A DNA stretch of 64,000 nucleotides from Rhodopseudomonas pseudopalustris. GTDB taxonomy: Bacteria; Pseudomonadota; Alphaproteobacteria; Rhizobiales; Xanthobacteraceae. The translations under genes and the position numbers were made by a program. Below the pieces are notes generated by a model. That model made no database searches. It had not been told where the DNA came from and saw nothing but the letters and a program-made list of their open reading frames with translations. The stretch spans positions 1 to 64,000 of the forward strand of contig NZ_FODT01000015.1 of assembly GCF_900110435.1 (NCBI RefSeq). The letters are read 5' to 3'. Numbering within the stretch: the first letter of the stretch is position 1; each line of letters opens with the position of its first letter. This document shows, piece by piece, positions 23,383 to 50,911 of this stretch.

Positions 23383-24422
23383 CTATGCAGACCGCGCCAC
23401 AGGCGGATGGCCGAACTGGAAGTCCCTTCCGTCCACCCACATGCGATGCATAATAATTGCAAGCTTGCGAGCCACCGCCACGCAAGCCTTCTTCGCGCCA
23501 ATGCGCTTGGCCAGCTTCACGCCCCAGGCCCGCAGAACGGACCACTTCTTCGAGATCCGCAGATGCGAGTTCGCGGCTTCATACAGCGCGTGGCGCATCA
23601 TCTTGTCACCGCACTTGCTGATATTGCCCGAGCGGTCAATCTCACCCGACTGATAGACACGGGGCGTCAGGCCGAGATGCGCGGCGACCGCCTTGGAATC
23701 CTTGAACCGGCTTGGATCGTCGATCGTCGCCTTAAATGACAGGCTCACGATTGGCCCAACACCGGAGACCGTCATCAGGTGCTTGCAAACGTCATCCTTG
23801 CGGGCCACTTGCGAAAGTTGCCGATCTAACGTCACCTTCTTTGCCCGCATCATGTTGCGTGCTTCCAGTAATGGCTCAATCGCGCCGCGCAGTTCCGACG
23901 CATCGGCGAGCATGGCCTCAACCTTCGCTGCGAAACGCACCCGATGGACTAATCCGAGCTTGATGCCGTGAACCTTGAGCAGACCACGGATGGAATCTTC
24001 GATCCGCCAGCATGTGGTCCACGAATTTACGACGGGCGATCAGCATGGTTCGCAGCAGTTGCGACGTCTTTGCTCTTCACGTGGACGGGCCGGTAGTGAC
24101 CAAGCCGCATCATGTCGGCGATGCCGCGTGCGTCGCTCCGGTCAGTCTTGTTGGGCCGAGAGGAACGAAAGCGTTGCGCGTGACGAGTCTCGATGCAGAC
24201 TGTTCGAAATCCGCTCTCGACCAGCGCGCCGTAGAGCCATTCCGATAGCGGGCAGGCTTCGATACCGACGAGCGTGATGGTCTCGCGCCAGCGTATGAGT
24301 GCCTTGATGAGAGCTGCGGGTTCGCTCTCGGCCTTGCCCTCCCAAACGGGTGAGCCATCCGCTTCCACAACACAGATTGAAGTGGTCTTGAGGGAAACGT
24401 CCAGTCCGACGAACAGGTACAT
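23383..24422 (-). pseudogene. IS110-family transposase with two frameshifts
   Basis: The N-terminal DEDD domain (MYLFVGLDVSLKTTSICVVE, first acidic residue D9) and the C-terminal Transposase_20 domain (LMTVSGVGPIVSLSFKATID, AAHLGLTPRVYQSG, conserved Ser in RSGNISKCGD) are both well preserved, but in different frames. A one-base insertion near 24060 breaks HVKSKD|SQLLRTMLIARRKF, and another near 24003 breaks FVDHMLA|IEDSIRG. The element cannot make an intact transposase unless both are programmed shifts, which is unlikely. IS110 elements lack long terminal repeats, so the ends are not defined. Confidence 0.85.
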
Positions 24423-24528: not shown

Positions 24529-24855
24529 CTATTCCGTGGGATTCCAGATCACCGCAAATTCGTCGTCGCTCTCCGATCCGGCGGCCCGGCCGAGATTGGC
24601 GAACAGCCTGCGCGGTCCGAACTCGGGCGCCGAGATCGAAACCGACACATAGTCGGCGCCGTTCTCCTTGTTCTTGCGAATCCAGGCGCCGCCAATCTCC
24701 GCGCCATTGGCATAAACGCGATAGTCGGGCTGGTCGCTATCCGGCTTCTTCTCCTTGTTCGGCATGATCTTCAGCGCCGCCGAGATCGACAGCGTCCGCA
24801 GCGTGCCGCGATAGGAACCGTCGTCGAGCTTGTTGACGTAGCCGATGGCTGGCAT
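24529..24855 (-). CDS. DUF736 family protein
   Basis: A 108-residue single-domain DUF736 protein (IGYVNKLDDGSYRGTLRTLS at the start; DYRVYANGAEIGGAW and GADYVSVSISAPEF following). DUF736 genes are a regular part of alphaproteobacterial plasmid and ICE backbones; their function is unknown, possibly DNA or nucleotide related. The ATG at 24853-24855 has GGGGAG 8 bp upstream, so I reject the 212-codon N-terminal extension. A second, more diverged copy lies at 41507-41821. Confidence 0.85.
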   Translation of the reverse strand: MPAIGYVNKLDDGSYRGTLRTLSISAALKIMPNKEKKPDSDQPDYRVYANGAEIGGAWIRKNKENGADYVSVSISAPEFGPRRLFANLGRAAGSESDDEFAVIWNPTE

Positions 24856-25345
24856 GTGATGTCTCCCCGTTTCATTCCGGCTGGCATCCGGCCCGGCATG
24901 CGCGGCGGTCTTGGCCGGAACGTCGGACTTGCCTGCGTCCGCGCCATGCCCAAGCAGCCGCGCCATTCCACTTGCTCGCATTCCGATCGCTCCCATGCCG
25001 ACGCGCGCCGTGGGCAGGAGCATCCACCGGGGCGCCGCGCCGCACACCCTGTCGAATCCGACGGGTCTCACAAGCCCAATGTCCCTGTGACAAAGCCCGC
25101 CCTCCGATCCCGATCGGCCGGATGGAGGGTGGCTGGGGCGGGTGCTGGCTGCCGCTTGCGCCATGCCGGCCGCAAGGGAGGCTTCGCCGCGCCCGGAGCC
25201 CGACGAATGCGACGTCTTGTCAACGCGCCCTTGCCCCCGGCAGGCTTCGCGGCCGGTCGGAGTCGTCCCGTCAATGGCGGGAATTGCGAAGCCAACCGAA
25301 GAAAGGGCTGGACATCGCCGCCGCGGCGGGTTCGGCGTAAGGGTC
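24856..25345. promoter_or_regulatory. Divergent GC-rich leader with conserved hairpin (copy L1)
   Basis: These 490 bp separate DUF736 (minus) from the DUF3991/TOPRIM gene (plus) and hold no gene. On the plus strand, 25165-25241 forms a two-part stem: GCCGG (25165-25169) with CCGGC (25237-25241), and GCAAGGG (25172-25178) with CCCTTGC (25228-25234), around a GGCTTCGCC loop. The same architecture recurs at 26941-27022 and 28308-28387 with compensatory changes, so it is probably an RNA leader element of the TOPRIM gene. Confidence 0.5.
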
Positions 25346-26251
25346 ATGGCGAAGAAAGACATTGACGAGCTGCGGGGAAAGGTGCCCTGCGCGTCCGTCC
25401 TGGAGAAGGCGGGCTGGAAAGTCGACCTGAAGGAAAGCACCCGCAAGGCGGTCAAGTACCGCCACGGCGAGGGCCAGATCGTCATCGTCATTCACGACGG
25501 GCGCGGCTGGTTCGATCCGATGTCGGACGCGAAGGGCGACGTCTTCGACCTCGCCGTGCATCTCGGCGCAGCCGGCTTTGCGGTAGCTCTGCAGCAGGTC
25601 GCCGATCTCGTTGGCTTCACGCCGAGGCAGCCGGCCTGGAAACGCCCGGCCCGGACGAAGCCGCCGGCGCCGCTTGCGCATCGCTGGACCGCGCGCCTCA
25701 AGCCGCGGCCGGGCTCGCCGACCTGGCGTTATCTCGCTGAGACGCGAGCCATTCCCGATCACTTGATTCAGGAGGCCGTCGATCAGGACCGGCTGCGCGA
25801 AGGCCCGCATGGCAGCATGTGGGCGGCCCATACCGACGAGTCCGGCGCCGTCGTCGGCTGGGAAGAGCGCGGCTCCGAATGGCGCGGCTTTGCGACCGAT
25901 GGATCCAAGGTGCTGTTCCGCCTCGGCGCGACGCATGCGACGCGTGTCTGCATCACCGAGGCAGCGATCGACGCGATGAGCCGCGCGGCGATCGAAGGTC
26001 TGCGCCACGATACGCTCTATGTCAGCACCGGCGGCGGCTGGTCGCCGGCGACCGAAGCTGCGATCCGCGCCATCGCCGCGCGCCCAGGCACGCTTCTTGT
26101 CGCCGCGACCGACAGCAACCTGCAGGGCGACGTGTTCGGCGACCGCCTGCGCGCCATCGCAAAGGATGTCGGCGCCCGCTACGATCGCCTGCGGCCGTCG
26201 CGTGACGATTGGAATGAGGACTTGAAGGAGGCGGTGCGAGCGACTCGTTAG
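25346..26251 (+). CDS. DUF3991 and TOPRIM domain protein
   Basis: A 301-residue protein. The N-terminal 110 residues (LRGKVPCASVLEKAGWKVDL, GRGWFDPMSDAKGDVFDLAVHL) form the primase-like DUF3991 region. The C-terminal TOPRIM domain shows VCITEAAIDAMS (acidic strand E) and TLLVAATDSNLQGD (D-x-N), equivalent to the catalytic Glu and DxD positions of primases. Such proteins occur in mobile-element replication or transfer modules. The start is the ATG at 25346 with AAGGG upstream; the frame is open further but the homologous part begins here. A toxin-antitoxin pair follows convergently. Confidence 0.82.
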   Translation: MAKKDIDELRGKVPCASVLEKAGWKVDLKESTRKAVKYRHGEGQIVIVIHDGRGWFDPMSDAKGDVFDLAVHLGAAGFAVALQQVADLVGFTPRQPAWKRPARTKPPAPLAHRWTARLKPRPGSPTWRYLAETRAIPDHLIQEAVDQDRLREGPHGSMWAAHTDESGAVVGWEERGSEWRGFATDGSKVLFRLGATHATRVCITEAAIDAMSRAAIEGLRHDTLYVSTGGGWSPATEAAIRAIAARPGTLLVAATDSNLQGDVFGDRLRAIAKDVGARYDRLRPSRDDWNEDLKEAVRATR

Positions 26252-26260
26252 GGCCCGGCC

Positions 26261-26584
26261 TCACCGCAAGAGGCGGCGCTCCAGGAGCGTTTGCATATCA
26301 CGACGGCCGTCGACGACGCAGTAGACGACGACGTCGCGCCCCATGATGCGATAAATGATGCGATACGGCCTGTAGTGCGTCTCGCGATAGTCGGTGATTC
26401 CGAGACCGGCCAGCTCCTTCGGGATGTTACCGCGCTCTGGCATCTCGGACAGCCGCTCACAAGCCCCTTCGAGCGCGGCCAGCACGTGATCCGCGCTGCC
26501 GACAGAGTCGTGGCTCGCGATGTAGCGATAGATGTCCTCGATGTCCCGCTCGGCATCCTCGGCCAGCAGCACGCGAAAGCGCAT
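26261..26584 (-). CDS. RelE/ParE-superfamily toxin
   Basis: A 107-residue basic protein with the ParE/RelE fold signature: an N-terminal strand and helix (FRVLLAEDAERDIEDIYRYIA), then YRPYRIIYRIMGRDVVVYCVVDGRRDMQTLLERRL at the C-terminus, as in ParE-type toxins. ParE toxins poison gyrase while RelE toxins cleave mRNA; the sequence fits ParE better. It starts 9 bp after the antitoxin stop. The pair probably stabilises the element. Confidence 0.88.
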   Translation of the reverse strand: MRFRVLLAEDAERDIEDIYRYIASHDSVGSADHVLAALEGACERLSEMPERGNIPKELAGLGITDYRETHYRPYRIIYRIMGRDVVVYCVVDGRRDMQTLLERRLLR

Positions 26585-26593
26585 CGCGCGCGA

Positions 26594-26866
26594 TCAGCCT
26601 TTGACGCGCGCGCGAATGCGCTTGAAGGCCTCGCCGGCGGGACGAACCTTGCCCGCTTCGACCTGCGCGTTGGTCAGGGCGAGCACCTTGAGAAGCGCGA
26701 GGGTTTCCTGCGTCTGCTCGTAGCGACCGACATCCTGCAGCACGGCCTTGGCTTCGCCATGCACCGTGATGACGACGGGATCCTGCCCCTCTGCCAGGCC
26801 GCGAATGATCTCCGGCGCATGCGCCTTGAGATGGCTGAGGGGTTTCACCCGATCGGATAGTTTCAT
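26594..26866 (-). CDS. Phd/YefM-family antitoxin
   Basis: A 90-residue antitoxin. The N-terminal Phd/YefM DNA-binding fold is recognisable (VKPLSHLKAHAPEIIRGLAE, PVVITVHGEAKAVLQDVGRYEQ). The C-terminal helix, rich in Lys and Arg, would bind the toxin. I use the ATG at 26864-26866, which begins the conserved MKLSDRVKPL block. It is first in the operon, with the toxin 9 bp downstream and an operator-like repeat just upstream. Confidence 0.88.
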   Translation of the reverse strand: MKLSDRVKPLSHLKAHAPEIIRGLAEGQDPVVITVHGEAKAVLQDVGRYEQTQETLALLKVLALTNAQVEAGKVRPAGEAFKRIRARVKG

Positions 26867-26888
26867 CTGCCTTCGCCTCACCAGACCA

Positions 26889-26911
26889 GAATATGGACCG
26901 AATATAGTCCG
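26889..26911. promoter_or_regulatory. Operator-like tandem repeat upstream of Phd antitoxin
   Basis: Two 12-bp units, GAATATGGACCG and GAATATAGTCCG, lie head to tail about 22 bp upstream of the antitoxin start, sharing a base. Together they contain GGAC-N8-GTCC as an inverted repeat. The AT-rich core would also hold the -10 on the minus strand. Phd/YefM antitoxins bind such short palindromes to repress their own promoter. Confidence 0.5.
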
Positions 26912-26940
26912 AACCAGAAGGAGAGGGAAGGGGCTCCCGC

Positions 26941-27022
26941 TGCCGCATGCCCGGCCGGCGCCTCAAGGGTGAAGCTTCGCCCGCGTTCCGCGGCCCTTGA
27001 CCCGCCGGACCGGCGAGGCGGC
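26941..27022 (+). promoter_or_regulatory. Structured leader element, copy A1
   Basis: An 82-bp element nearly identical to 28308-28387. It forms CCGGCG (26955-26960)/CGCCGG (27003-27008) and TCAAGGG (26963-26969)/CCCTTGA (26994-27000) stems enclosing GAAGCTTCGCCCGCG. It lies 45 bp before the ATG at 27068. Compared with L1 at 25165-25241 the inner stem closes with T-A instead of G-C, a compensatory change that supports an RNA structure. Confidence 0.55.
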
Positions 27023-27067
27023 CGCGCCCCGAGGGTGTCTTCAACACCCGAAGGGGAGGACAACCTC

Positions 27068-27457
27068 ATGCCAATCTTTACAATCGAGACGACCTATCGC
27101 CTGCCGGTCTATCGCCAGCGCAGCTACGAAGCGGCCGATCTCGCCGCGGCCTGCCGGCTTGCCGTCGAGGACGACGACTGGGACGGCGCGAAGCACGACC
27201 ACGAAACCGTCGGCGAGACCTATGTCACCGGCGTCTGGGAAGGCCGCGACGCCGCTTATAGCGGTCCGTCCGCGCCGGTCCCCTCGCACTATCGCGAGAC
27301 CGTCCAGCGCAAGGCCGATCACTTCGAGGTGCTGCTCGGCCTCGTGAAGGTGCTGAGCGGCGCTGAGGCGTCGGATCGCGCCTATTGGCAGGACCGCGCC
27401 GTGTCCGCGATCGCCAAGGCCGAGGCCATCCTCGTCGGCGCCCGCGATCCGGACTGA
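27068..27457 (+). CDS. Conserved ICE/plasmid backbone protein, unknown function
   Basis: A 129-residue acidic protein without a recognised domain. It begins with a beta-rich region (FTIETTYRLPVYRQRSYEA), followed by an acidic stretch (EDDDWDGAKHDHETVGETY) and a C-terminal helical part. The start at 27068 is fixed by GGGGAGGA 9 bp upstream; the in-frame extension upstream is the structured leader. A short hairpin terminator follows at 27489-27511. The arrangement of leader, small gene and terminator suggests a separate transcript. Confidence 0.7.
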   Translation: MPIFTIETTYRLPVYRQRSYEAADLAAACRLAVEDDDWDGAKHDHETVGETYVTGVWEGRDAAYSGPSAPVPSHYRETVQRKADHFEVLLGLVKVLSGAEASDRAYWQDRAVSAIAKAEAILVGARDPD

Positions 27458-27488
27458 TCCGGCGCCAGCCCCACCATCCCGTAATCCC

Positions 27489-27511
27489 GCCCGGTCCCGC
27501 CGGGCTTTGTC
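27489..27511 (+). terminator. Hairpin terminator
   Basis: GCCCGG-TCCCG-CCGGGC followed by TTTGTCATTT, 31 bp after the preceding stop. The stem is short (6 bp) but GC-rich. Confidence 0.5.
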
Positions 27512-27527
27512 ATTTCAGGAGACCAAC

Positions 27528-28298
27528 ATGGCCAGCTACTACGTGCCGACCGTCGTGCAGACGACGATTCCCAACACCGACATGACGCCGCTCGAGCGGC
27601 TCGTCCTCTCACATATGTTCGACGCTGAGCCGGACGACGACGGGCTCTATTTCTTCGCCGAGGAAAGCCCGCGCGAGTGCATCAAGGTCGACGCCGCCGA
27701 GCTGCGCGCCGCGCACCGGGATTCTGCCGACGGCGACAGCGTTCTCGACTCAATCGTCGGGGAGCGCCTGGCGGAAAGCGCCGACGCCGAGACCCACATC
27801 GAGCTCGACCTGACCGTGACGTCGTGGGCGACCGTCTTTCAGGACATCGTGCGGCGTTCCGTGACGCTCGAGGAGATAGCTGTCTCATCGGCATTCACGT
27901 GCTCGCGCATGCGGCCGGACGGATTTGGCGGCATGGCCACACTGATCACTGCCGATTCGATCCGGTCATGCTCGACGGACGAGGCGCTGCAGCAATTCCG
28001 CGAGGAGCTTGCGACCGCAGCAGCGCCGCGAACGCATGTGCTCCTGCGCTTCGACGAAAGCGAGGTGCGGACGATGATCGGCGAGGTCATCACCTATGAC
28101 GACGCTCTTACGACGCTGTCGCCGGATGCCATCACCGGCGATGACGTGCATGCGGCATGTCTCGCCGTTGCCGCAGCGACCCAACTCATGGAGGAGCATG
28201 GCACGGCTGTGTTCAAGGCCGCGCTCGCGGCCATCAAGAGCGCCGAACAGCGCCGTGCCGAATCGAATGCAGGAAAAGGAAGAAGGGAGGGGGAATGA
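27528..28298 (+). CDS. Conserved ICE/plasmid backbone protein, unknown function
   Basis: A 256-residue acidic protein that I do not recognise. It has no signal peptide or membrane span. It is rich in Asp, Glu, Ala and Thr, with a region resembling a helical scaffold (DEALQQFREELATAAAPRTHVLLRF) and a mixed-charge C-terminal tail. The start ATG at 27528 has AGGAG 8 bp upstream. Its 3' end runs directly into the next structured leader (28308-28387). Confidence 0.65.
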   Translation: MASYYVPTVVQTTIPNTDMTPLERLVLSHMFDAEPDDDGLYFFAEESPRECIKVDAAELRAAHRDSADGDSVLDSIVGERLAESADAETHIELDLTVTSWATVFQDIVRRSVTLEEIAVSSAFTCSRMRPDGFGGMATLITADSIRSCSTDEALQQFREELATAAAPRTHVLLRFDESEVRTMIGEVITYDDALTTLSPDAITGDDVHAACLAVAAATQLMEEHGTAVFKAALAAIKSAEQRRAESNAGKGRREGE

Positions 28299-28307
28299 GA
28301 AACGCGA

Positions 28308-28387
28308 TGCCGCATGCCCGGCCGGCGCGTCAAGGGAAGCTTCGCCCGCGTTCCGCGGCCCTTGACCCGCCGGACCGGAGAGGCGGC
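28308..28387 (+). promoter_or_regulatory. Structured leader element, copy A2
   Basis: An 80-bp copy of the element at 26941-27022 with only a few differences. Stems are CCGGCG (28322-28327)/CGCCGG (28368-28373) and TCAAGGG (28330-28336)/CCCTTGA (28359-28365), loop AAGCTTCGCCCGCG. It lies 89 bp upstream of the DUF1419 start. Confidence 0.55.
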
Positions 28388-28476
28388 CCGCGGGAGGAGG
28401 TGATGAAGGGCTGAAGTGAATGAGGGATCAGGCGGATCACTCACGCTTTCGGTCCGCGAGGCTGAAAGGAGCCGCC

Positions 28477-39898: not shown

Positions 39899-40825
39899 AT
39901 GAGCCGGAAGGAAACCAAGCCCCGCGCCGACATCTATGCGCGGATCACCGATCGCATCGCCGCCGACCTCGAACGCGGCGTGCGACCCTGGGTCCAGCCC
40001 TGGAACGCGGCCAATACGGCCGGACGCATCACGCGCCCGCTGCGCCACAACGGCATGCCTTATCAGGGGATCAACGTCGTGCTGCTCTGGTCGGAGGCCG
40101 TGTCGCGCGGCTTCACGTCGCCGATCTGGATGACATTCAAGCAGGCGGCCGAGCTCGGCGGCCATGTCCGCAAGGGCGAGACCGGCACGATGGTCGTGTA
40201 TGCCAATCGGATCACGAAAACCGAGACCGATGAGCATGGCGACGATGTGGAGCGCGCGATTCCCTTTCTGCGCGCCTACATCGTCTTCTGCGTCGACCAG
40301 ATCGACAACCTGCCGGATCATCATTACGGACGCCCGGCGCCGAACGGCGTGCCGGCCCAGCGTATCGCACACGCCGACGCATTCTTCGCCAATACCGGCG
40401 CGACTATCCGACATGGCGGTGACAAGGCCTACTTTGCGCCGTCGCTCGACATCATTCAGATGCCGCCGTTCGAAAGCTTTCGCGACGCCGAGAGCTACAC
40501 GGCGACGCTCGCGCATGAAAGCGTGCATTGGACCGCGCCAGCGCACCGTGTCAATCGCGACCTCAGCCGCTACGCGAAGGCTCGCAGCGAGCGCGCCCGC
40601 GAAGAACTGGTCGCCGAGCTCGGCGCATGTTTCCTTTGCGCCGATCTCGACATCGTGCCCGAACTCGCGCCGCGCCCCGACCATGCGAGCTACCTCGCTT
40701 CGTGGCTGGACGTGCTATCCAACGACAAGCGCTTCATCTTCTCTGCGGCGGCGCACGCGCAACGCGCGGTCGCCTATCTGCACGGACTTCAGCCCGACTC
40801 TGGCATGGTCCGGGAGGCGGCATGA
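39899..40825 (+). CDS. ardC: ArdC-type antirestriction protein
   Basis: A 308-residue protein with the ArdC layout: an N-terminal ssDNA-binding domain (DIYARITDRIAADLERGVRPWVQPW, GMPYQGINVVLLW, FKQAAELGGHVRKGETGTMVVY) and a C-terminal zincin-like metallopeptidase domain with HESVH (HExxH) followed by the EELVAELGACFLC block, whose Glu would be the third ligand. ArdC protects incoming single-stranded conjugative DNA from host restriction. The ATG has CGGAGG 9 bp upstream. A terminator hairpin follows at 40904. Confidence 0.9.
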   Translation: MSRKETKPRADIYARITDRIAADLERGVRPWVQPWNAANTAGRITRPLRHNGMPYQGINVVLLWSEAVSRGFTSPIWMTFKQAAELGGHVRKGETGTMVVYANRITKTETDEHGDDVERAIPFLRAYIVFCVDQIDNLPDHHYGRPAPNGVPAQRIAHADAFFANTGATIRHGGDKAYFAPSLDIIQMPPFESFRDAESYTATLAHESVHWTAPAHRVNRDLSRYAKARSERAREELVAELGACFLCADLDIVPELAPRPDHASYLASWLDVLSNDKRFIFSAAAHAQRAVAYLHGLQPDSGMVREAA

Positions 40826-44935: not shown

Positions 44936-46864
44936 TTATGCCGATCGCCGCCCGCCCGTGGGCGCGAACCTGTTGCTGGCAACACAGGCGGTCATGTCCT
45001 TGCGCCGGAAATAGATCGCGCGTCCGCACCGCAGCGGCGGGTTGCCGGCCGTGAACACGATCTGCTCGTCGCCGCGCATCTGCGTGATCTCGTGCGGCAG
45101 GATCAGCGGCCGGCGTGACAGCAACCGCGAGCGCGTCCGCGACGACCCGGAGGCCTGCGAACTGCGGCTGATCTGGCTGACCTCGACCGTCGTGTCGCCG
45201 CAGCGCCGCGAGATGTATTCGGCGGTCTCGGGGTCGTTGATCGCGCTGAACGACATCCAGGACGCCGACTCGAACCACTTCGATGCGGCGTCGCGGCCGC
45301 CATAGACCTCGCGCATCTGGCCGATCGACTGGAACAGCATCAGAAGGGTGATGCCATATTTGCGTCCGGCGTCACGCGCGGTCTCGAGGACGCGCAGGAA
45401 CCCAAGCCGCGCCACTTCATCGAGCAGGAACAGCGTGCGGCCGGCCACCGCGCCCGCGCGGTTATAGATCGCGTTCATCAACGAGCCGATGATGAGGCGC
45501 GCCAACCCCGGATGGTTCTCCAGCGTCTTCAAGTCGACGTTGATGAACACATCCATCGTTCCAGCCGCCAGCTCGTCGGTCGAGAAGCTGCGGCCCGACA
45601 CCAGCGCCGCATAGTTCTCATAAGATAGCCAATGCGTCTCCTTGACCGCATTGGCATAGACGCCGCTGAAGGTCTCGGGTGTCATGTTGACGAACGAGGC
45701 GACATTCTCCTTCACGAAGTCCGACCCCGAATGATCGTAGATCGCCTGCAGCCGCTCGCGCAGCTTCGGCTCGGGCTCGGACAGGTTTGCCCGCACCTTC
45801 CGCAGGTGCTGGTCCTTCTGCTCCGTATGACCTGACAGGCAGACATCGGCGATCAGTGCGGTCAGCAATTGTAGCGCCGACGCCCTGAAGAAATCGTCGC
45901 GCACCGAATGGGTGCGCGCGACGTCGGTCATGATCCACGACGCGACCGAGGCGATGTCCTCCTCTTTCGTTGCGCCGAACCGGCCGATCCAGTCGAGCGC
46001 GTTGAAGCCGGTCTCCGGCGTCTTCGGATCGAGCACGAAGACGGTGCGGCCGGCGCGCTTGCGATGGTCGATCACCATCGGCGCGACCTCGTTGGACGGA
46101 TCGAGCGCGACCAGGCCGCCGCCCCATTTGAGCGCGGTCGGGATCGTCACCGACGTCGTCTTGAAGCCACCAGAGCCGGCGAAGACGATGCCGTGGGTCG
46201 AGCCCCACGACGCATCGAAGCACAGGAGCGGCGCGCGGCCGCCCGCGCCCCAGCTCTCAGGGTCGCCGGCGCGGAACGCGCGATCGCCGACGGAATCCCT
46301 GTCGACACGATAGCGTTCGCCGATGACGATGCCGCCGCCTTCCGGAAACAGCCGCGCGGCCTCGCCGACGCTCATCCATTGCGCGTCGCCGTGAATCGCG
46401 CGCTGGCCTGACACCCGCCGCGGCGCGGCCGCCGCGAAGGCGGCATTGCCTGCCAGCGCGACGCGCAATGCGAACAAACCGCATGCGAGCGCGGCGAACG
46501 ACCCCATCAGCGTGGCGGGGTCCGCATAAGCCAGAACCGATCCGTCGCGCACGCGGCCGGCGAGGGCGAACAGGCGACTCCCTTCCGACCATGCGGCGAA
46601 GCCGACGACAGCCGTCGCGCCGGCGAGGACGCCCCAGCCGGCTGAGCGCACGGCGAGCGCGCCGGCGCAGGCGAACAGGGTGATGACGCCGATTGCGGCC
46701 GCGCCGAGGTAGGGCAGGGCGATGCCGGTCCGCCCCAGCAACAGCGCCGCCTGCGGTGTCTTTGCGAAGCTCGCAAACCATTGCTCATGACCGCGCAGCG
46801 CGATCATCGCGCCGATCATCAGCGCGGCGGGCACGATCGTCAGCGCCACCTTATTCGCGTTCAT
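44936..46864 (-). CDS. traG: Ti-type type IV coupling protein TraG
   Basis: A 642-residue VirD4/TraG ATPase that links the relaxosome to the mating pore. Four hydrophobic segments lie in the N-terminal 140 residues. Walker A is the variant GSGGFKTTS (about residue 235), Walker B is [11 protein letters not shown], and the C-terminal [20 protein letters not shown] block is characteristic. The start overlaps traD by 14 bp, as usual in traCDG clusters. Confidence 0.95.
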
Positions 46865-47066
46865 CGCTGAAGGCCTTCGTGCCGATCGCCGCGAACCGCT
46901 CGCGCTCCGCTTCGCTCGCTCGCGCCCGCTCAGCGGCGTCGATCAGCATGCCGAGCAACAGCGCCCGCTTCTCGTAGCGCAGTCCCGCCTTCACGATCAG
47001 CCCGCCGAGCTGAATCTTCTCGCGGGTGTCCTTCTTCCTGTCGTCGCTGCGGCGAGCCCGGTCCAT
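46851..47066 (-). CDS. traD: Conjugal transfer protein TraD
   Basis: A 71-residue basic protein with the Ti-type TraD pattern ([28 protein letters not shown]), an accessory relaxosome protein. It sits between traC (4-bp gap) and traG (14-bp overlap). Confidence 0.9.
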
Positions 47067-47070
47067 GCGC

Positions 47071-47340
47071 TCAAGCCTCAGAAGATGCGCCCGGACCCGC
47101 GCCAGGCGGCTCGGGTGAACCCGACCCGCGCGCGGATCGCGGCGCGGCGCCGGCCTTGCGAAATCGGGCCTTCACCTCCTCGAAGGCGGTCAGCAACTCC
47201 CCCTCGTCGATCTCCAGGTCTCCGAGCCCGGCCTTCAGGGCTACCCGGCCGATGCGCTCGGCTTCGCGCGTCTCGGCCGCCTTGAGCTGGTCCTGCAGAC
47301 GGGCGATTTCCTCTCTGATCTGTCGTGACGGCTTTTTCAT
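47071..47340 (-). CDS. traC: Conjugal transfer protein TraC
   Basis: An 89-residue protein with a Ti-type TraC core ([40 protein letters not shown]), an accessory DNA-processing protein. The tail is Gly/Pro/Ser-rich. The ATG at 47338-47340 has AAGGAGG about 12 bp upstream. First gene of the leftward tra operon, facing oriT. Confidence 0.88.
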
Positions 47341-47482
47341 TCCGGTTGGTGATCCTCCTTCTGGCGCGCGGTACGCGCGAAGGAGAATTGACCGGGAATG
47401 CGCGAAGCGCACCCCGTCGGAAACGACAGGTCGGCGAAGCCGACACTTTGGGGGATCATCCCGCCGATCCGAAGGGTCGGCT

Positions 47483-47517
47483 CCAAGGGCGCAGTAATAC
47501 GTCGCTGGCGCGACGTA
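47483..47517. other. oriT: Origin of transfer (oriT) of the Ti/rhizobial-plasmid type
   Basis: In the 250-bp gap between divergent traC and traA lies CCAAGGGCGCAGTAATAC followed by ACGTCGC-TGGC-GCGACGT, a perfect 7-bp inverted repeat at 47499-47516. The complement contains TGCGCCCTTGG, the nick-region core that RSF1010-family and Ti oriTs share, so the nick should fall there on the minus strand. Position, orientation and neighbours all agree with pTi and rhizobial plasmids. Confidence 0.85.
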
Positions 47518-47590
47518 GGTCTGCTCAGCCGGAAGGACGACGCCGATCCCTGCGGACGAGCCGTGTCGTCATTCTCGCAGGACCGCCGCC

Positions 47591-50500
47591 TTGGCCATCA
47601 CGCACTTCACACCCCAGCTCATCAGCCGCGCCGATGGCCGCAGCGCTGTGCTGGCGGCCGCGTATCGCCATTGCGCGAAGATGACCTTCGAGGCGGAGGG
47701 CCGCACCGTCGATTACACGGCCAAGCGCAACATGGTGCATGAGGAATTCCTGCTGCCGGCGGACGCGCCGCAATGGGCGCGGGCGATGGTGGCGGACCGC
47801 TCCGTAGCGCAGGCATCGGAGGCGTTCTGGAACAAGATTGAGGGCTTCGAGAAGCGCTCGGATGCGCAGCTCTCCAAGGAGTACATCATCGCGCTGCCGA
47901 TCGAGCTGACGACCGCGCAGAACATCGCGCTCATGCGCCAGTTCGTGGCCGAGCACATCCTGCCCGCAGGGATCGTGGCGGATTGGGCCTATCACGACGA
48001 TCCGGGCAATCCGCATGTCCATCTGATGACGAGTCTGCGCGCGCTCACCGAGGACGGTTTCGGTCCCAAGCGCGTGGCCGTATTGGGCGCGGACGGAGCA
48101 CCGCTGCGCAACCGGGCCGGCAAGATCGTCTACAAGCTCTGGGCCGGCGACAAGAATGAGTTTCTGGCGGTTCGCCAGGGATGGATCGATCTGCAGAACC
48201 ATCATCTCGCGCTCGCCGGGCTCGACGTGCGCGTGGATGGCCGATCCTATGCCGAGCGTGGCATCGACATCGTGCCGACGACCCATGTCGGGGTCGCCGC
48301 AAAGGCGATCGAGCGCAAGGCGAAGCGGCAGGGACGCGGACCAAACCTCGATCGCCTGCGGTTGTTCGAGGAGCAGCGGCAGGTCTCGGCCGAGCGCGTG
48401 CTGCGCCGCCCGGAGATCATTCTGGATATCGTGTCGCGCGAGAAGAGCGTGTTCGATGAGCGCGACGTCGCCAAGGTGCTGCATCGCTATGTCGACGATC
48501 CGACCGCGTTCGGGGTACTGCTCGCGCGCATCCTGCAAAGCCCGGATGCCGTCCGCCTCGAGCACGAGGGGATCGACTTTGCGAGCGGCGCCAGAACGCC
48601 GGCGCGCTACACGACACGCGAGCTGATCCGCATCGAATCCGAGATGGCCAGGCGCGCGATCGGGCTTGCCGGCGCGGAGACGTTCGGCGTTCGCGATCAG
48701 ATCCGCAATGCCGTCCTCGATCGACACGCCATGCTCTCGGCCGAGCAGCGGTCGGCGATCGAGCATGTGACCGCTCCCGGCCGCGCGGCGGCCGTGGTCG
48801 GGCGCGCCGGCGCCGGCAAGACCACGATGATGCGGGCCGCGCGCGAGGTCTGGGAGGCCGCCGGCTATCGGGTTGTCGGCGGCACATTGGCGGGCAAGGC
48901 GGCCGAGGGTCTGGAGAAAGAAGCAGGGATCGCCTCGCGCACATTGGCGTCATGGGAGCTCGCCTGGAGCAAGGGCCGGTCGATCCTCGACACCCGCACG
49001 GTGTTTGTCCTCGACGAGGCAGGCATGGTCGCATCACGCCAGATGGCGACCTTCGTCGAGGCGGTGTCGCGCGCCGGCGCCAAGCTGATCCTGGTCGGTG
49101 ACGCCGAGCAGCTCCAGCCGATCGAGGCCGGCGCTGCCTTCCGCGCGCTGGTCGAGCGCATCGGCTATGCAGAGCTCGAGACGATCTACCGCCAGAACAC
49201 GCAATGGATGCGTGACGCATCGCTCGATCTCGCCCGCGGCCGCGTGGGCAAGGCGCTGGCAGCGTATCGCCATCATGGGCACGTCATGGGCTCCGAGTTG
49301 AAAGCGCAGGCCGTGGCTGCGCTGATCGACGATTGGAGCCGCGACTACGATCCGGTGAAGTCGACCTTGATCCTGGCGCATCTGCGCCGTGACGTGCGCG
49401 CGCTCAATGACATGGCGCGCGCCACGCTCGTATCGCGCGGAATCGTCGGCACGGGTCACGCCTTCCGCACCGAGGACGGAGAGCGCCGGTTCGCGGCGGG
49501 CGATCAGATCGTGTTCCTGCGCAACGAGGGGTCACTCGGCGTCAAGAACGGCATGATCGGACGCGTCATCGAAGCGGCGCCAGGCCGGTTCACGGCCGAC
49601 GTCGGGGAGGGCAGTCACCGCCGGCGCGTCGCGGTTGACCAGCGCTTCTACCGCAATGTCGACCACGGCTACGCCACCACGATACACAAGGCGCAAGGCG
49701 CGACCGTCGACCGCGTGAAGGTGCTGGCGAGCCTGTCGCTTGACCGGCATCTTGCCTATGTGGCGCTGACCCGACACCGTGAGGATGTTGCGCTCTATTA
49801 TGGACGCCGATCGTTCGGCAAGGCCGGCGGACTGATCCCCATCCTGTCCCAGCGCAACGCCAAGGAGACGACGCTCGACTACGAGCGTGGCGGCCTCTAT
49901 CGCGACGCGCTTCGCTTCGCCGCCAACCGCGGCCTGCATGTGATGCGCGTCGCCCGAACCCTCGTGTCCGACCGCGTGCGCTGGGCGCGGCGTCAGAAGC
50001 AGCGGCTCGATGATGTGGCCGCGCGCCTTCGGGCCGTCGGCGCCCGTCTCGGCCTTTTCAACCCTCGTCATGTTCCGCCCACCAGCCGCAAAAAGGAGGC
50101 CGCGTCCATGCTGCCCGGTGTCACCACATGGCCGAAATCCGTCGCCGAGTCGGTCGAGGACAAGATCGTCGCCGATCCGGCCTGCAGGAAGCAGTGGCAG
50201 GAAATGTCGAGCCGTTTCGCGCTCGTGTTCGCGAAGCCGGAGACCGCCTTCAAAGCCATGAACTTCGATGCCGTGTTGCACGATCCCGCAACCCGCAAGG
50301 CGACACTCAGCCGCCTCGCAACCGAGCCGGCATCGTTCGGCGATTTGCGCGGCGCGAAGGGCGTGCTCGCAGGGAAAGCCGCCACCAAGGAGCGCAAAGA
50401 GGCCGAAGCCAATGTCGCCACGCTCGGCCGCGAAATCGAGCGTTATGCGCGACTGCGCGCGGAGGCGTTGCGCAAGTACGAAACGGAGGAGCGTGCGCTG

Positions 50501-50911
50501 CGGCTGCGTGTCACCGTCGACGTCCCGGCGCTTTCGCCCGCGGCGACGCTGGTGCTGGAGCGGGTTCGCGACGCCATCGACCGCAACGATCTGCCGAACG
50601 CGCTCGCCTTTGCGCTCTCCAACAAGATGGTGGCGGCGGAGATCGAAGGGTTCAACAAGGCCGTGGCGGAGCGCTTCGGGGACGGCGCGTTCCTGTCCAA
50701 TCGCGCGAAAGAGCCGAAGGGCGCAGCCTTCGATGCCGCCGCCGCCGGCCTGCGGGAAAATGAACGACCCGCGCTCGCGGCTGCATGGCCCATGCTCCGC
50801 GCAGGACAGCAACTCGCCGCGCAGCAGAAATCCGCTCAAGCGCCGAACAAGGTCGAGACCGAGCGCCAGGTTCAGCGCCAAGCCCGGAGTCGCGGGATGG
50901 CCATGAAATGA
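47591..50911 (+). CDS. traA: Ti-type conjugative relaxase/helicase TraA
   Basis: A 1106-residue bifunctional enzyme. The N-terminal MobA/MobL-type relaxase has the three-His metal motif in [14 protein letters not shown] (near residue 140). The middle part is a RecD/TraI-like superfamily 1 helicase: Walker [10 protein letters not shown] (about 404-412), [20 protein letters not shown], and [15 protein letters not shown]. The C-terminal 300 residues are helical. It starts with TTG, preceded by AGGA; no in-frame ATG is available upstream and the MAI-x-HF family start fits. Coupled to traF by an ATGA overlap. Confidence 0.95.

Follow-up and report, generated by a model that had tools for sequence, protein, structure and literature searches.

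Promoters that work on single-stranded DNA (ssDNA) have so far been described from enterobacterial plasmids (F, ColIb-P9 and relatives), as far as the available portions of the reports go. In these Frpo/ssi systems a hairpin of the transferred strand lies upstream of leading-region genes, with that strand as the template; several copies occur per plasmid, and the neighbours include anti-defence genes (available portions of PMC11541004 and PMC9849209). We describe here a family of structured elements that appears to resemble them in these traits. Three copies are present in a 64,000-nucleotide stretch of Rhodopseudomonas pseudopalustris DNA (positions 1 to 64,000 of contig NZ_FODT01000015.1, hereafter the window). 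The element probably functions as ssDNA, on the transferred strand. Our preferred reading, which we regard as nearly an even call, is a DNA hairpin with a regulatory role that is active as this single strand and most likely recruits RNA polymerase. If true, a covarying and strand-biased family on plasmids of Hyphomicrobiales would extend the ssDNA-promoter principle to another bacterial class.

The leading genes of F likewise face the origin of transfer (oriT). Unlike Frpo, the present element lacks a canonical -10 box and resembles the F leading region neither in sequence nor by covariance model; it forms a G+C-rich three-way junction with a GNA-type mini-hairpin, and its promoter role is predicted from sequence. 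EGeRS1 of pLS20 is also a repeated structured sequence ahead of establishment genes, ardC included. In pLS20, however, the transferred strand is the non-template one, which its authors use as an argument against an ssDNA promoter, whereas here it is the template by homology (available portion of PMC8708921). The d(GCGNAGC) mini-hairpins share with our element the GCGNAGC on the transferred strand, N being free, but here they form one arm of a larger junction. Finally, the CUP elements of IncN pKM101 are reportedly repeated upstream elements of a leading-region regulon, a trait shared with our element, but are described as duplex promoters with a repressor.

Literature searches on Agrobacterium or Rhizobium together with leading regions or ssDNA promoters, made on titles and the start of abstracts and with subscription papers and preprints outside their scope, found no description of this family. 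In the same literature DUF1419 appears in no paper, DUF3991 in one and DUF3085 in two. The available portions of PMC10469942 and PMC3738593 contain nothing on these sites.

A covarying family of elements

All three window copies lie on the plus strand, ahead of a toprim gene, an unknown gene of 129 residues and a DUF1419 gene (Table 1). This agrees with the first-pass annotation, including the gene names (Pfam), save that copy 1 is longer than it had proposed. Copies 2 and 3 are near-identical, with 98% identity across 53 nucleotides and 94% across 32. Their 29-nucleotide core is present at two sites in the window, with 0.00 expected, so these two copies do not result from chance. Copy 1 was outside the training alignment of our covariance model R1, yet R1 finds it at an E-value of 5e-7 over 249 kb. 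On the source genome the value is 1.1e-5, and the three matches listed all fall within this region. Other R1 matches on the contig reach at most 16 bits, opposite-strand shadows aside. By itself copy 1 folds no better than its shuffles, so its membership of the family rests on homology; copy 2 folded as RNA is weak (z -1.6).

On the gene strand, the architecture consists of P1 (GCCGC/GCGGC), P2 of about 10 base pairs with a bulged A, and P3 (TCAAGGG/CCCTTGA). Above P3, GCTNCGC occupies a bulge on the 5' side and a hairpin, P4, is stacked on P3. The toprim type has GCAAGGG/CCCTTGC as P3, and a longer P4 with a variable loop. The GCTTCGCC(C)GCG that had been proposed as a loop is instead made up of a 7-nucleotide mini-hairpin and the 5' strand of a second hairpin; one long stem carries both.

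Three copies cannot prove the covariation claimed for them, but 70 sequences do (69 non-redundant ones of 136 elements plus one window copy, alignment A2). Under a hand-set structure, 91.7% of cells are paired, 12 pairs are changed on both sides (7.8 in shuffles) and 111 cells are doubly changed versus 41.4 in shuffles; versions with the structure slid along reach at most 31. The hand-set structure has an advantage in this test, and P3 and the outer P4 pairs are nearly invariant, in part because the search pattern fixes them. On the raw MAFFT alignment, from which L095 (a false positive by eye) was left out, RNAalifold recovered the upper stem alone for the gene strand, and more for the reverse one. 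The covariation is real and belongs to a structured family.

Rfam gave no match at gathering score in the window or in nine loci, and chance-level matches only in 4.4 kb of the window. PDB sequence searches gave no match either. An RNA hairpin in the leader downstream of the element was considered and dropped; RNAalifold found none. A count with ill-chosen arms (64 leaders parsed, 25 failed) had given 29 G-T, 15 A-C and 69 mismatches.

The strand that folds

Folded with DNA parameters, 127 of 129 elements of the DUF1419/129-residue type are more stable on the strand opposite the genes, by a mean of 4.0 kcal/mol. These 129 leave out the 11 of 140 elements with no assigned gene. RNA parameters give the same preference by 119 to 10, with control stretches 300 nucleotides downstream at 50 to 76. 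For the toprim type, the opposite strand is better in 74 of 85 elements under DNA parameters (control 42 to 43) and by 49 to 36 of 85 under RNA parameters.

The direction of mispairs can separate an ssDNA element from an RNA element, as an A-C mispair on the gene strand is a G-T on the opposite one. Among 132 parsable elements, gene-strand mispairs in P2 comprise 54 A-C versus 13 G-T cells, and those in P1 seven versus three. Counted as parsimony events on a FastTree tree, P1 and P2 together give 36 A-C versus 12 G-T (binomial p 0.0007). In the outer P4 of the toprim type there are 18 A-C versus 4 G-T cells, or 12 versus 3 after collapse at 85% identity (p 0.035). All these p values are weakened by the relatedness of the elements. 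The counts omit the pair next to the shifting bulge; 6 of 138 full-length elements could not be parsed, compared with 9 of 100 in an earlier count with a narrower pattern. Retention of pairs through G-U, expected of a gene-sense RNA, is not what we see, with A-C outnumbering G-T, and the mispairs fit the opposite DNA strand.

The loops point the same way. GCTNCGC is nearly invariant and reads GCGNAGC on the opposite strand. Where the toprim-type triloop was left free by the search, T-N-C appears in 81 of 85 elements (TTC 42, TGC 34, TCC 4, TAC 1, with four exceptions). For the DUF1419 type, it appears in 12 of 13 elements in loci not chosen by pattern, and in 138 of 140 of a set mostly chosen by a pattern that fixes TTC. 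DNA mini-hairpins of the GCGNAGC kind, with G-N-A loops, are extremely stable. Their stability is also documented in the available portion of PMC10527192. When folded as DNA, the minus strand of window copies 2 and 3 and of pTiC58 forms the junction with a 2-bp mini-hairpin; the plus strand gives the same junction, less stable, for copy 3 and pTiC58, and copy 1 does not form it.

A fixed place in the inferred leading region

The wider pattern, which also takes in elements with a shorter bulge missed by the narrower one, matched 140 elements. DUF1419 follows 115 of them, 101 to 152 nucleotides beyond P3, and a homologue of the 129-residue gene follows 14, at 63 to 67 nucleotides. The other 11 have no assigned gene, four of them lying within 190 nucleotides of the end of the stretch. 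A toprim gene starts 65 to 113 nucleotides after 85 of 90 matches to the toprim-type pattern, and four of the five misses are opposite-strand shadows. In 77 of 104 cases no more than 31 nucleotides separate the toprim stop codon from the next element (up to 322 otherwise), which leaves little room for another promoter. Two further elements were noted. The open reading frame (ORF) behind the one at L112:4269-4364 starts, by eye, like the window helicase/methylase, and the one at L101:7795-7890 is close to the end of its stretch.

The window and pTiC58 share the order toprim, DUF1419, helicase/methylase, ParB-like, ArdC and DUF736 on the plus strand, continuing with traG-traD-traC on the minus strand, then oriT, and traA on the plus strand. 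Their oriT regions align around a common inverted repeat and TGCGCCCTTGGA. The nic site presumably lies between 47490 and 47489, with position and direction taken from RSF1010 and Ti work. On this placement the minus strand is transferred, with the side below 47489 going in ahead of the rest. The window arrangement agrees with the typical position of the relaxase, on the lagging side (available portion of PMC11541004). By homology, the element genes would therefore lie in the leading region, face oriT and have the transferred strand as their template.

Nineteen plasmid records are common to the listed matches of the element and of TraA, and all 19 have the listed element on the traA strand, 19.7 to 40.4 kb upstream of the traA start. 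Several of these plasmids are nearly identical to one another. CP045495, also among the 19, carries an additional same-strand copy 57 kb beyond the traA start. The same arrangement is seen in pTiC58 (25 kb) and pSinA (18 kb). In pBBta01 (MOBP), the element has mobC and the relaxase gene on its own strand, about 46 kb ahead round the circle.

Distribution among plasmids and genomes

BLAST with copy 2 matched 360 of 72,556 plasmid records at E-values up to 1e-3, and copy 3 matched 422, mainly plasmids of Agrobacterium, Rhizobium, Sinorhizobium and Bradyrhizobium. The core pattern occurs in at least 120 genome-contig stretches, and its exact form has no match in viral contigs. Further copies with conserved pairing do exist on many plasmids, ahead of the same few genes. 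Under stricter filters, R1 found the element in 22 of 397 genomes of the order; seven of the 22 belong to one genus with chromosomal copies. These chromosomal copies of the core (stretches L162, L164-L168, L173, L175, L178-L184 and L186-L207) are embedded in longer inverted repeats.

In pSymA of S. meliloti (L015:5977-6061) the 3' half alone of the element matches (BLAST query 45-97; R1 17.7 bits, E 0.28). This partial element looks like a relic.

Weighing the possible roles

The sequences show that the family exists and covaries, that its fold is biased to one strand and that it has a fixed place ahead of genes. We infer the identity of the transferred strand from oriT homology, and the single-stranded action is likewise inferred. 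Under the preferred reading, the transferred strand (here the minus strand) would fold into a long stem that ends in a three-way junction, from which two short hairpins project, one of them GCGNAGC. This fold would most likely recruit RNA polymerase, and leading-region genes would be transcribed toward oriT before second-strand synthesis, with the transferred strand as template. By analogy with Frpo, the element may act as a promoter, which we put slightly short of even. It is possible, though somewhat doubtful, that it represents a new class of ssDNA promoter lacking a -10 box, in which GNA-type hairpins are part of a three-way junction; on the entry of Ti, rhizobial and related plasmids into a cell, such a promoter would turn on their leading region (the side with toprim, DUF1419, helicase/methylase and ArdC). 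ArdC is needed in recipients, not donors, for plasmid R388 (available portion of PMC7213743); since it is encoded in the same region here, early expression would be useful. If the reading is true, the family would serve as a search model for finding leading regions, and ssDNA transcription could be tested directly in rhizobial laboratory strains.

Several observations weigh against this reading. No -10 box was found, none of 91 elements matching TATAAT at more than two of six positions and shuffles doing as well. The -10 box would be expected where P1 lies, which is G+C rich, and a -35-like CTTGAC is confined to the DUF1419/129-residue type. R1 finds no similarity in the F leading region (13.2 bits, E 1.8). 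As for the strand bias, the downstream controls of the DUF1419/129-residue type lean slightly the same way under DNA parameters (74 to 50 of 126), P1 alone has mispair events of 3 to 3 by parsimony, and deeper, poorly paired P4 positions of the toprim type show no bias (G-T 46, A-C 30). Lastly, the genus with chromosomal copies has 33 dispersed cores in seven genomes by pattern (the reversed pattern gives none), and in 29 chromosomal contexts, on crude ORF calls, the orientation relative to neighbouring ORFs is not constant. These relatives mean that the core fold is not confined to leading regions.

The first-pass annotation had proposed a functional RNA family that coordinates the genes of the element. 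Coordination survives, but as the work of a DNA element in the leading region of conjugation; a functional RNA is not supported. A cis-regulatory RNA leader, whose gene-sense fold would control translation or transcription of the next gene, would suit a covarying structure directly ahead of start codons, and one element sits closely behind a gene and could be an intercistronic RNA. Such a leader is improbable, as the gene strand folds worse even under RNA parameters in both types, mispairs are A-C instead of G-U, the loop identities fit the opposite DNA strand, and Rfam has no match. A single-strand priming site (ssi), at which the folded transferred strand would load primase or the toprim protein and start second-strand synthesis, explains an ssDNA fold on that strand, and a toprim gene always lies close by in these loci. 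It is quite unlikely, given that priming does not require a fixed distance to the start codons of three types of gene. A passive palindromic repeat or insulator, spread through duplication, would match the multi-copy chromosomal relatives, and EGeRS1 of pLS20, with no regular promoter, stops readthrough (available portion of PMC8708921). Against the near-constant place and orientation on plasmids, it is highly improbable. The trait of repetitive extragenic palindromic (REP)-like repeats, many dispersed copies with no gene orientation, holds for the chromosomal relatives of one genus only and not for plasmids, where the place is fixed.

A double-stranded operator or promoter region, with inverted repeats bound by a regulator such as TraR, is unlikely too, but has evidence of its own. 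A box like TGCAGATCTGCA, which we take to be the tra-box core, occurs with at most two mismatches in 16 of the 85 toprim-type elements, within the P4 loop, and in none of 85 shuffled loops (one each) even at three mismatches. Toprim-type elements with tra-box-like palindromes include those of L026, L035, L060, L061, L103 and L132, among others. Most elements have no box, and a duplex operator gives no reason for a strand bias in stability, mispairs and loops. Tra boxes lie about 45 or 65 nucleotides ahead of the transcription start (available portion of PMC3907764). Counted from the box, 45 nucleotides reach the 3' end of the toprim-type element, so in elements with a box transcription would begin there or farther on and the message would not contain the fold, which also speaks against an RNA. 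On tra derepression, a DUF3991 gene of pLPU83a goes up by 2.76 log2; 22 gene numbers from traA, it is the only listed induced plasmid gene outside tra/trb and their neighbours (available portion of PMC13055273). This induction may be plain TraR control. It would fit TraR control or, should pLPU83a carry the element, ssDNA transcription.

Features and neighbouring genes of the window

Table 1. Elements, genes and transfer functions in the window.
Feature	Position	Strand	Evidence and remarks
Toprim-type element, divergent (copy 1)	25143..25265	+	R1 42 bits, E 5e-7
Mini-hairpin GCTTCGC of copy 1	25181-25187	+	P3 here GCAAGGG/CCCTTGC
Element ahead of 129-residue gene (copy 2)	26934..27024	+	Mini-hairpin 26974-26980; R1 75.6 bits, in training set
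DUF1419-type element (copy 3)	28301..28392	+	Mini-hairpin 28339-28345; R1 97.4 bits, in training set
Toprim gene, DUF3991 + Toprim_2, 301 residues	25346..26251	+	Pfam; 61% identity to pTiC58 protein
Unknown gene, 129 residues	27068..27457	+	No Pfam, NCBIfam or PADLOC match
DUF1419 gene, 199 residues	28477..29076	+	Pfam PF07215, E 2.7e-55
Helicase/N6-methylase fusion, ~1697 residues	29243..34336	+	Pfam; 77% identity to pTiC58 protein
ParB-like plasmid protein	34593..36245	+	Profile matches
ArdC antirestriction protein	39899..40825	+	Pfam ArdcN + MPTase-PolyVal
traG-traD-traC	~44936-47340	-	
Ti-type oriT	47480..47525	-	Alignment with pTiC58 oriT region
TraA relaxase	47591..50911	+	NCBIfam TraA_Ti, E 4.8e-302; synteny

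Between the 129-residue gene and the DUF1419 element there is an ORF of 263 residues (27507-28298, plus strand) with no Pfam, NCBIfam or PADLOC match. A ParE/Phd toxin-antitoxin pair on the minus strand (26261-26866) separates the toprim gene from the 129-residue gene, and the matching site of pTiC58 holds 'mobile mystery' A/B genes. The DUF736-like gene is at 24541-24855. Beside it, two adjacent ORFs on the minus strand (23383-24422) presumably correspond to parts of an IS110-type transposase.

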